NCBI GenBank assembly: GCA_030698575.1
Contig: JAUYMQ010000632.1
Span: forward strand, 1-5,669
Direction: 5' to 3'
DNA from: Deltaproteobacteria bacterium
GTDB taxonomy: Bacteria > JAUYMQ01
Length of the DNA stretch: 5,669 bases
A model generated the notes under the pieces. The model was not told the origin of the DNA. It saw only the letters and a program-made list of their open reading frames with translations, and did no database searches. Positions 899-3,830 of the stretch are shown here, in pieces; position 1 is the stretch's first letter; each line of letters opens with the position of its first letter. Both the position numbers and the translations under genes were made by a program.

Positions 899-1171
899 CT
901 ACCAGTCGTAGGTGTCTTCGAGGGTGTCCTGCCCGAAGATCTGCTTGATCGGCGTTTGATCGCCCAGCCAGCGGCCCGGGCGCAGGATCAGGTTCTCGTA
1001 CGCGTAGCCGAGGGGATAGGCGATCGTGCCGGCGATGTAGACCGGATTGCCCGACTCGTCGGGATCGTAGTCGCTGGCCGCCGCCGGAGCTGGCAGGATC
1101 AGCAGGAGCGCCACAAGAATCGCCGGCAGTACCAGCGCGCGGCTCGGGGACCTTTCAAGAGAACAATGCAT
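899..1171 (-). CDS. Small exported protein of unknown function (90 aa)
   Basis: I do not recognise a named gene. The product begins with a classic Sec signal peptide: a short basic N-region (ERSPSR), a hydrophobic core around residues 13-27 (LVLPAILVALLLILP) and an APAAA-S cleavage site near residue 32. The cysteine at residue 3 is not in a lipobox. The mature part is only about 58 residues, starts with SDYDPDESGNP and ends with DTYDW. Its middle (YPLGYAYENLILRPGRWL, then IKQIFGQD) resembles from memory a short module seen in small envelope proteins of deltaproteobacteria and relatives; that resemblance is unverified. Export to the periplasm or outer envelope is inferred. The ATG at 1171-1169 is preferred over an in-frame GTG two codons upstream (1177-1175), because the GAGGTG Shine-Dalgarno sequence overlaps that GTG and is well placed for the ATG. 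A good promoter lies upstream, and an M20 hydrolase gene follows, so it is the first gene of a probable two-gene unit. Confidence 0.8.
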   Translation of the reverse strand: MHCSLERSPSRALVLPAILVALLLILPAPAAASDYDPDESGNPVYIAGTIAYPLGYAYENLILRPGRWLGDQTPIKQIFGQDTLEDTYDW

Positions 1172-1180
1172 GGACACCTC

Positions 1181-1325: not shown

Positions 1326-1358
1326 GATTGCTTCGTCGCTTCGCTCCTCGCAATGACA
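1326..1358 (-). repeat. Full-length repeat copy, inverted (left end)
   Basis: A 33-bp copy, read on the minus strand as TGTCATTGCGAGGAG, then CGAAG, then CGACGAAGCAATC. This is the canonical form of the dispersed repeat. It faces all five right-hand copies and gives the composite element its inverted-repeat ends. Confidence 0.85.
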
Positions 1359-1370
1359 GGACAGAAGCCG

Positions 1371-1514
1371 CATGTCATTGCGAGGAGGGCCGCCTGCCAC
1401 CCGACGCATGTCATTGCGAGGAGGGCCGTCTGGCACCCGACGCATGTCATTGCGAGGAGGGCCGCCTGGCACCCGACGCATGTCATTGCGAGGAGGGCCG
1501 CCTGGCACCCGACG
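1371..1514 (+). repeat. Four tandem 36-bp units (derivative repeat copies)
   Basis: Units begin at 1371, 1407, 1443 and 1479. Units 3 and 4 are identical; unit 1 differs by one base (TGCC for TGGC) and unit 2 by one base (CCGTC for CCGCC). Each keeps the 15-base TGTCATTGCGAGGAG arm and CGACG but lacks the AAGCAATC end, replaced directly by the CA of the next unit. There are no spacers, so this is a tandem array rather than a CRISPR. Near-identity indicates recent copy-number expansion by slippage or unequal recombination. Because 36 is a multiple of three, five of six reading frames stay open across it; all the resulting ORFs are judged spurious. Confidence 0.92.
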
Positions 1515-1516
1515 CA

Positions 1517-1555
1517 TGTCATTGCGAGGAGGGCCGCAGGCCCGACGAAGCAATC
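1517..1555 (+). repeat. Full-length repeat copy (right end) with internal GC hairpin
   Basis: A 39-bp copy: TGTCATTGCGAGGAG, an 11-base centre GGCCGCAGGCC, then CGACGAAGCAATC. The centre gives a perfect hairpin, GGGCC-GCA-GGCCC at 1531-1543, absent from the left copy, whose centre is CGAAG. On the minus strand this hairpin starts 21 bases after the stop codon of the last glycosyltransferase gene, without a following U-tract. Confidence 0.85.
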
Positions 1556-1564
1556 TCCCGGGCG

Positions 1565-2665
1565 CTAGCTCATGCACTTCTCGTAAATGGCGATCGTTTC
1601 CCGCGCGACGCGCTCCCAGGAGAAGCCGGCCGCGCGGGCCCGGGCACGTTGTTCGAGATCGGCGCGAACCGTGGCGGCGCCGAGAATGCGCCCCATGGCA
1701 CCGGCAATCTCGTCAACGCTTTCCGGATCGACCAGCAGCGCGGCGTCTCCGGCAACTTCGGGAAGCGAGGACACCCTCGAGGTAACCGCCGCCGTGCCGC
1801 AGGCCATCGCCTCGAGCGGCGGCAGCCCGAAACCCTCGCAGCGCGACGGGAAGACGAACACACTCGCCGCGCCGTAGAGCGCCGGCAGATCCCCATCGGC
1901 GACGTTCCCCAGCACGATCACGCCTTCGTCGAGCCCCTCGTCACGCAGCCAGGCCCGAAATCGAGGCGGCGGGTTCCCGGCCAGCACCAGCGACGCCGTC
2001 ACGCCGGCCCTCCCCCGGAGCTTCGCGTAGGCGCGGACCACACCCTCGGCGTTCTTGTGGCGGCGGTAGTTCGAGAGGTGGAGCACGTAGCCCGGCGTGA
2101 TGCGGTGCGAAGCGGCAAAGCGCTCGACGTCGGCGGGCGGCGGGGGGTGGAACGCCGGGTCGGCCGCGAGCGGGGTGATGTGCACCCGAGCCGGATCGGC
2201 GCCAAGCCGCTCGACGAGATCTCGCTTGCTCGCCTCCGAGAGCGTGATCACCGCCCGGGCGCGGCGCACCAGCGGGCGCACGACGAACCGGTAGTAGAGC
2301 GGATGCACGCGGGAGTACTCCTCCGGATAACGCAGATGAATCAGATCGAAGACCGAGAGCACGAGCGGATGCCGGGCGAGAAGCGGCGAGGTGTAGGTGA
2401 GCGCGTGGTGGAGATCGCAGGGCACGCGGTTCAGCACGCGCGGCATGCGCAGCTGCTCGGCGACGCCGTAGGGCGCGACGCCTGCCTTCTCGACGGAGAA
2501 GCGAGAAGATGGCGCGAAGGCGCCGGGAAGCGGCCCCGGGCCGAAGACCACGTGAAAAGTATGCGGCGTCTCCATCGCCGCGTAGGCGTTGAGCAGGCTC
2601 CAGCCGTAGCGCGCGATGCCGTGAAGCGGCATGGCTATCGCGCGGGCATCAAGAAGCAGCTTCAC
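1565..2665 (-). CDS. GT4-family glycosyltransferase, last gene of the polysaccharide operon (366 aa)
   Basis: This is a retaining GT-B glycosyltransferase of family GT4, probably cytoplasmic or membrane-associated, adding a nucleotide-activated sugar to a growing glycan. The N-terminal acceptor domain opens with LLLDARAIA and [11 protein letters not shown] (residues 3-25) and includes [13 protein letters not shown] (104-116) and the [11 protein letters not shown] stretch (140-150). The C-terminal donor-binding domain begins at [13 protein letters not shown] (193-205), where R202 and K204 are likely diphosphate contacts. It has the full E-x7-E motif, [15 protein letters not shown], with E277 and E285. 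Overall it is closest to mannosyl- or rhamnosyltransferases of the WbaZ/mtfB sort, but donor and acceptor cannot be read from sequence. The GTG start (2665-2663) is chosen because GGGAGG lies 6 nt upstream and homology starts there; the reading frame continues further upstream but with low-complexity Ser/Arg/Pro translation antisense-like to the previous gene. It overlaps the upstream GT4 gene by 17 bases. Confidence 0.92.
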
Positions 2666-3830
2666 CGGTTGCCTCCCGCAGCCGTTCCTCCAGCCACAAC
2701 ACGTGCCCGGCCCAGCTGTGCGACGCGGCCACGTGGCCGCGTGCCGCCTCGCCCATGGCCCTGCGCCGCTCGCCGTCGCGCGCGAGCGTGACGATGGCCG
2801 TCGCAAAGGCGTCGAGATCGCGGGGCGGGACGGCGAGCCCCCGCTGCGCCTCGCCCACCTGCTCCCGCAGCCCCTCGTAGCCGAAGAGCACCACCGGAAG
2901 CCCGCAGGCCATGTACTCGAAGACCTTGAGGGGCGACCAGAAGAATCCAAAACGCGCCAGCGGCGGGTAGGCGCTGGCGTCGTAGGGGGCGATGCCGATG
3001 GCGCAGGAAGCCACCGCGGCGGGCATCTCTTCATAGGGGATCGAGCCGGCCACGATCACGTTCTTCTCGATCCCCTCGGCGCGGACCCTGGCGCGGACCT
3101 CCGCGAGGTCATCCCCCTCGCCGAGCAGCACGAACTTCAACTCGGGCGCGCGCGCTAGCGCCCGGCGGGAGATGCCGGGGATGTCGAGCACGCCGTGCCA
3201 GCGGCGGAAGCTGCCCGCGAAGAGAACGACCGTGCTCCCTTCCAGACCGAAACGATTCCGGAAAGCCCGGCCGGCCTCCGTCGCAGCCGCCTCCGGGCTG
3301 AAGCGCTCGACGTTCACGCCCCACCCGCACAGCCGAACCCGATCCCGCGCACCCGCCGGGACGATGCTCTCGCGGGGCGCCACCGCGATGCGCGCCGCGC
3401 TGAACTGCCACGCCACCCAGGCGCGCGTCACCGGGGCGAGGAGCGCGCCGCGCCACCCCATGCGCCAGACGAGTTCCTCGACGTGCGGGCTGTTGACCTC
3501 GAGCACGAGCGGGATGCTCCGGCGCCGCGAGAGAACCGCCCCCGCGCCGCCCTGTGTCAGATAGCGCTCCATGATCACGTCCGCGTCGGCGGCCAGCCCC
3601 GCGGCGGCGCGCAATCCCCTGAGCGGGACCATTTTACCGCCGACCTTCAGGTTCACACGGACGATGCGCACCCCTTCCAGCGTCTCCTCGGCGGCCTGCC
3701 CCGCGCCGAGGTGAACCAGCGCCGTGACCGCGTGACCGCGCGCCACAAGCCCGCGGGAAACCTCCCAGGCGTGCACGCTGCCGCCCATGCGGCCGGGGAT
3801 CTCCTCGTTGGCGAGGTAGAGAATTCGCAT
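2649..3830 (-). CDS. GT4-family glycosyltransferase (393 aa)
   Basis: A GT-B glycosyltransferase of family GT4. The N-terminal Rossmann domain starts MRILYLANEEIPGRMGGSVH, with the glycine-rich acceptor-side loop RMGGS at 14-18 followed by the HAWEVSRGLVARGHAVT helix-strand typical of the family. LVLEVNSPHVEE (108-119) is a conserved mid-domain segment, and GWGVNVERFSP (169-179) marks the linker into the donor domain. FAGSFRRWHG (204-213) and FVLLGEGDD (233-241) are donor-domain strands; SPLKVFEYMACGLPVV (299-314) holds the second Glu (E305) of the E-x7-E motif, while the position of the first Glu is F297, a variation found in several GT4 subgroups. No signal peptide or transmembrane helix is evident. 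ATG (3830-3828) is preferred over the adjacent GTG (3833-3831), since GAGG is 4 nt from the ATG but only 1 nt from the GTG. Its ATG shares one base with the stop of the GT9 gene. Sugar specificity is unknown. Confidence 0.92.
   Translation of the reverse strand: MRILYLANEEIPGRMGGSVHAWEVSRGLVARGHAVTALVHLGAGQAAEETLEGVRIVRVNLKVGGKMVPLRGLRAAAGLAADADVIMERYLTQGGAGAVLSRRRSIPLVLEVNSPHVEELVWRMGWRGALLAPVTRAWVAWQFSAARIAVAPRESIVPAGARDRVRLCGWGVNVERFSPEAAATEAGRAFRNRFGLEGSTVVLFAGSFRRWHGVLDIPGISRRALARAPELKFVLLGEGDDLAEVRARVRAEGIEKNVIVAGSIPYEEMPAAVASCAIGIAPYDASAYPPLARFGFFWSPLKVFEYMACGLPVVLFGYEGLREQVGEAQRGLAVPPRDLDAFATAIVTLARDGERRRAMGEAARGHVAASHSWAGHVLWLEERLREATGEAAS
2672..2677 (-). promoter_or_regulatory. Ribosome-binding site that decides the GTG start of the second GT4 gene
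   Basis: GGGAGG on the minus strand, 6 nt before GTG 2665-2663 and lying inside the 3' end of the upstream GT4 gene. It rejects the much longer upstream extension of this reading frame (to 3034) and indicates independent re-initiation rather than pure stop-start coupling. Confidence 0.75.

Follow-up and report, generated by a model that had tools for sequence, protein, structure and literature searches.

Tandem half-hairpin units beside a TGTC-tagged REP element and the one-sided recurrence of such arrays in many phyla

Introduction

The CGTC-tagged REP superfamily (Di Nocera et al. 2013), which includes dRS3 of Neisseria and RPE-4/RPE-6 of Rickettsia, comprises elements with an 8-9 bp stem that begins with AT, a 4-5 nt loop, and a terminal unpaired CGTC tag that is often TGTC (or CCTC) (PMC3733652). 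According to the text of that study, these REPs are dispersed at high copy number in intergenic DNA near gene 3' ends, mostly as head-to-head dimers; head-tail dimers are called negligible and clusters rare, and the authors mention clusters in which flanking DNA is reiterated too. The same text describes them as being without a dedicated transposase, and because none has been linked to them, the spread of CGTC-type REPs is still a question (PMC3733652).

Tandem arrangements have been described in Pseudomonas fluorescens SBW25, for which the text of Bertels and Rainey (2011) reports REPIN clusters and tandem REP arrays that include flanking sequence (PMC3116915). The elements there are GTAG-type and RAYT-linked, and whole REPINs or REPs are repeated at periods of ≈70-110 bp or more. 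In the text of the two papers (PMC3733652, PMC3116915), we found no description of units made of a REP 5' half, of their polarity, or of an endpoint at the hairpin tip. REP clusters that take in flanking DNA are known, and the half-hairpin units, the polarity, and the tip endpoint are apparently undescribed in those texts, which is not proof of novelty.

Here we analyze a stretch of 5,669 nt from a Deltaproteobacteria bacterium (the window; contig JAUYMQ010000632.1 of assembly GCA_030698575.1), in which a REP is accompanied by such half-hairpin units. Taken alone, the array in the window is an ordinary intergenic repeat cluster.

Results

Layout of the repeat cluster

The cluster lies just past the 3' end of a glycosyltransferase gene, and its parts and neighbors are arranged as follows.

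899-1177, minus strand: 92 aa ORF, the next downstream on the glycosyltransferase strand, with a signal-peptide-like start
1326-1358, minus strand: complete REP with a CGAAG-type centre, TGTCATTGCGAGGAGCGAAGCGACGAAGCAATC, TGTC tag toward the array
1359-1372, no strand assigned: 14-nt spacer, GGACAGAAGCCGCA, with a facing tag on either side and the semi-conserved CGCA as its last four bases
1373-1408, plus strand: half-unit 1, outermost from the complete REP, 20-nt REP 5' half plus CCTGCCACCCGACGCA
1409-1444, plus strand: half-unit 2, 20-nt REP 5' half plus TCTGGCACCCGACGCA
1445-1480, plus strand: half-unit 3, 20-nt REP 5' half plus CCTGGCACCCGACGCA
1481-1516, plus strand: half-unit 4, same letters as half-unit 3
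1517-1555, plus strand: complete REP with a GGGCCGCAGGCCC-type centre, predicted to form a DNA hairpin
1565-2677, minus strand: family 4 / group 1 glycosyltransferase gene (Pfam, 370 aa stretch scanned)

The two complete REPs (1326-1358, minus, and 1517-1555, plus) face each other, as an earlier sequence-only reading of the window had it; they do so tag to tag, with the half-units between them. That reading also counted four 36-bp units amplified on one side, which agrees with the unit starts at 1373, 1409, 1445, and 1481, and Tandem Repeats Finder reports a period of 36, 4.7 copies, 97% matches, and a score of 324. The stop codon of the glycosyltransferase gene is the TAG at 1567-1565 on the minus strand, so the complete REP does begin 9 nt past it, the distance first read. 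A Pfam scan of the 92 aa ORF at 899-1177 (minus) gave no match. Because 36 bp is divisible by three, long reading frames stay open across the array on both strands (956-2791, plus; 1235-1522 and 1302-1577, minus); these frames are almost certainly spurious.

The TGTC repeat in its own genome

The proposal that the repeat belongs to a dispersed family, with its arms elsewhere in the genome, is borne out by a search with the 15-base arm, TGTCATTGCGAGGAG, which at ≤1 mismatch occurs in 169 copies (92 + 77) spread over many contigs of the 4.13-Mb genome; ≈0.25 chance copies are expected from base composition, with 66% G+C assumed, and the reversed-pattern control gave 0 matches. Nearly all copies carry TGTC at the 5' end, usually with CGCA just before the tag, and they end in CGACGAAGCAATC followed by C-rich DNA, whereas the centre varies (CGAAG, GGGCCGCAGGCCC, and others). 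Most copies are paired with their tags outside, many of them as plus/minus pairs 73-120 bp apart, and the complete pair in the window is of the rarer tail-to-tail kind. At seven loci (L034, L041, L059, L062, L069, L070, and L087), a second palindromic repeat, CCCGAGGTCCCGCGCGAAGCGCGGGCCGAGA or near it, is nested by the REP tip.

The predicted fold of the complete copy at 1517-1555 leaves TGTC unpaired and consists of an ATTGC/GCAAT stem and a GGGCC-GCA-GGCCC tip, two helices of 5 bp each with an internal loop between them; folding of the CGAAG-type copy is weak, and a single REP unit has no unusually good predicted folding. Judged by these features, the window repeat fits closest to the CGTC-tagged REP superfamily, with which it shares the unpaired tag, the palindrome beginning with AT, high copy number, intergenic placement, and the occurrence of both head-to-head and tail-to-tail pairs. 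The position near a gene 3' end, seen here for the copy 9 nt past the stop, and the absence of an associated transposase gene, seen here for the three Y1_Tnp genes of the genome, none of which has a TGTC REP beside it, are further likenesses. Unlike the described members, the window REP has an interrupted inner stem that is longer than the listed 8-9 bp. It differs from GTAG-type RAYT REPs and REPINs in its TGTC tag, and no RAYT gene with the same repeat adjoins it. An Rfam scan of the window returned no RNA family match up to E = 1, and a literature search with the letters of the repeat returned primer sequences only.

Anatomy of the 36-bp units

The units had first been taken for full repeats with an altered centre. 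In fact each matches the complete REP exactly through base 20, which lies in the apical loop (TGTCATTGCGAGGAGGGCCG), and then continues for 16 bp of flank-like sequence, CCTGGCACCCGACGCA, ending in CGCA. As read from these letters, the units are REP 5' halves cut in the hairpin loop and joined to flank-like DNA, with no altered centre. Other arrays of the same genome have units that likewise stop near the hairpin tip, with junctions between GAGGAGCG and TCCCATCGCA (L075), GAGGAAGGCCG and AACCGCC (L080), and GAGC and CCCTTCTCGCA (L086), and at many loci the added segment copies the DNA just 5' of the array. In 17 of 86 arrays, the added segment and the array's 5' flank are at least 80% identical; pairing arrays at random gives 0.7%.

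In the window, the 5' flank GGACAGAAGCCGCA matches the added segment at 8 of 15 positions, with no match beyond CGCA, a loss that insertion of the facing REP may explain. Since this flank no longer matches, a flank origin for the window's 16 nt is drawn from the other loci, and we infer that these bases once formed the REP's 5' leader, which would make the repeated segment the leader plus the 5' half of the hairpin. The sequence CCCGACGCA also precedes an unrelated single REP in this genome.

Recurrence and polarity of half-unit arrays

The sequence-only reading had considered the layout of one complete copy, four derived units, and another complete copy less ordinary. That judgment does not stand, as half-unit arrays occur at ≈20 loci of the same genome and at many loci in many phyla. 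They are also found in the isolates Chloroflexus islandicus, Thermodesulfatator autotrophicus, and Pumilibacter intestinalis, and therefore are not an artefact of metagenome assembly. None of the 40 genomes returned by a search for relatives shares the phylum of the window's genome.

The arrays are strongly one-sided. Across 61 contigs of the window's own genome, 47 tag-intact half-units stand in tandem 5' of another copy, and 3' halves do so in no case; the unpaired 3' arms listed in this genome are chance gene sequences or REPs with longer centres. Among 51 genomes, the 5' arm occurs in 237 short-period tandem pairs and the 3' arm in 4; the counts become 204 and 4 once one pair per genome is dropped, as these genomes were chosen through a 5' tandem. 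The base rates of single arms are much less unequal (140:105 and 317:164 for 5':3'). In viral contigs, which were selected for complete REPs without regard to tandems, 11 5'-half neighbors and 0 3'-half neighbors surround 173 complete REPs; a 3'-arm control scan of these contigs used 9-nt arms, too short for specificity, and is excluded from the counts. Throughout, neither the units of one array nor the arrays dispersed in one genome count as independent events.

The four 3'-arm tandem pairs all come from Thermodesulfatator autotrophicus (G088, L261-L264), the sole such genome of the 51. In two other genomes (G056 and G052), one array unit with an identical added segment recurs at many loci, so that arrays can evidently disperse whole. 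The window's own genome has practically no half-REPs standing alone, away from a complete REP, which argues that the units arise where they are found, next to a complete REP.

Endpoint, period, and leader

In 143 of 156 arrays, the retained part of the REP extends no further than the hairpin tip, compared with a mean of 82 and a maximum of 104 in 5000 trials of a uniform null for the breakpoint. An excess of breakpoints within 2 nt of the tip is marginal (p = 0.03). Retained REP length and flank length are negatively correlated, a correlation that errors in breakpoint placement alone produce. The modal period is 24-28 bp, found in 115 of ≈170 arrays, and the 36 bp of the window lies above the usual range. 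These half hairpins at ≈26 bp set TGTC arrays apart from those of SBW25, which resemble the window array in being tandem repeats that take in flanking sequence. The few clean junctions carry 0-2 nt of microhomology.

In singleton REPs (L360-L434), the ≈11 nt 5' of the tag are poor in G (≈0.13 versus 0.24 farther 5') and rich in pyrimidines, with no conserved sequence, and the length of this leader is in a range similar to that of the duplicated flank. No nick site or consensus was found at the start of the duplication in the arrays. An age gradient is weak: the proximal unit is the cleaner one in 14 arrays and the distal unit in 5 (p = 0.06).

Transposase genes and the transcript

The genome contains three Y1_Tnp genes. 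No TGTC REP lies beside any of them, and at least two are flanked by repeats of their own that are unrelated to it. The RAYT or transposase link suggested at first was accordingly rejected, the Y1 genes being not adjacent and carrying other repeats. At two of these loci (L071:7019-8323 and L072:10801-11935), the flanking repeats are a ATCCGTGCCCTAAAGGGCCGG family and a 34-bp inverted repeat with GGGGTCAGACCCC.

The idea that the cluster would give the glycosyltransferase mRNA a foldable 3' end fared better in prediction, as the minus-strand RNA of the repeat block is predicted to fold well below its shuffles (z = -6.0). The further suggestion, that the cluster could insulate a downstream promoter, went unsupported: no sigma-70-like promoter was found between 850 and 1750 of the window, and no terminator-like site at the array, the only such site predicted being far from it. 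We infer that the 3' end of the glycosyltransferase transcript includes the array. REPs commonly occupy such a position, which calls for no dedicated function; a role in stabilizing that end is plausible by analogy and would be ordinary.

Discussion

Our central reading, to which we give even odds, is that the window holds a TGTC-tagged REP cluster in which one copy has been duplicated repeatedly in polar tandem fashion, as leader plus 5' half. In one possible and less certain outline, a single-strand nick in the pyrimidine-rich leader would be followed by short synthesis from the nick up to the hairpin tip, and rejoining would then leave an extra leader-plus-half-hairpin unit. Each unit would be copied next to the complete REP, and older units would thus be outermost. 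The duplication may be a by-product of REP mobilization by a putative enzyme.

Only tentatively, and at less than even odds, do we ascribe the polarity to an element-specific act of this kind (for example, leader nick, synthesis to the tip, and rejoining) in place of ordinary slippage. A one-sided, element-specific act would explain the polarity, the start, and the endpoint together. In IS200/IS605-type single-strand transposition (TnpA, RAYT), a short tag lies at the foot of a hairpin and the cut falls several bases 5' of it; cutting of this type would, by analogy, give the observed polarity, and the analysis linked no enzyme of this type to TGTC REPs. That polar copying is intrinsic to TGTC/CGTC REPs at large, with a putative enzyme nicking the leader ≈5-15 nt 5' of the tag, we regard as somewhat doubtful.

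Ordinary replication slippage or template switching is the strongest competitor, in our estimate only slightly less likely than such an act. Here a polymerase would stall in the palindrome and the nascent end would re-pair upstream, with no special enzyme, and the product would be a duplication of flank plus half hairpin. Breakpoints at or before the hairpin tip are what stalling predicts, and REP clusters reiterated together with flanking DNA are already described in the texts cited above (PMC3733652, PMC3116915). Events on either side of the hairpin should nonetheless yield 3'-half arrays, and those are nearly absent; slippage at the hairpin accounts for the endpoint and not for the polarity. 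Strand preference gives a divided answer: in Pumilibacter (G079, L591-L604), arrays favor the locally G-rich strand 20:6, compared with 45:40 for single REPs (p = 0.04), whereas in the window's genome, G052, and G056 the orientation of arrays shows no relation to GC skew (24:22). The 0-2 nt of microhomology at the cleanest junctions also speaks against slippage, with few junctions being clean.

Selection offers a different source of one-sidedness, in which repeated TGTCATTGCGAG sites bind protein or form useful RNA and duplications on the 5' side alone are retained. In some arrays (for example, L037 and L193), the cores are intact while the added segments diverge, a contrast that is biased because loci were found by their intact cores, and outer units do decay. 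The folding of the transcript far better than shuffles (z = -6.0) would suit a useful RNA, but a single REP unit folds no better than usual, and the arrays adjoin unrelated genes. We consider this explanation improbable. Equally hard to credit is an altered repeat, that is, a full repeat whose centre changed and whose 3' end was lost before unequal exchange multiplied it in tandem: the CCCGACG of the unit does resemble the REP's own CCCGACGAAGC, and in the window the unit finds no match in the array's 5' flank, but loci with other centres and added segments stop at one structural point with a segment that copies the 5' flank, the CGCA before the tag is common to most REPs of this genome, and CCCGACGCA stands before an unrelated single REP.

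For the REP family, duplication on one side with a fixed structural endpoint in many phyla limits any model of how CGTC-type REPs move. The gain or loss of half-units beside a marked REP would provide a simple assay of that movement. If the polar reading is true, half-unit arrays across many phyla would be the footprint of polar copying and would offer a way to find these REPs' missing transposase.
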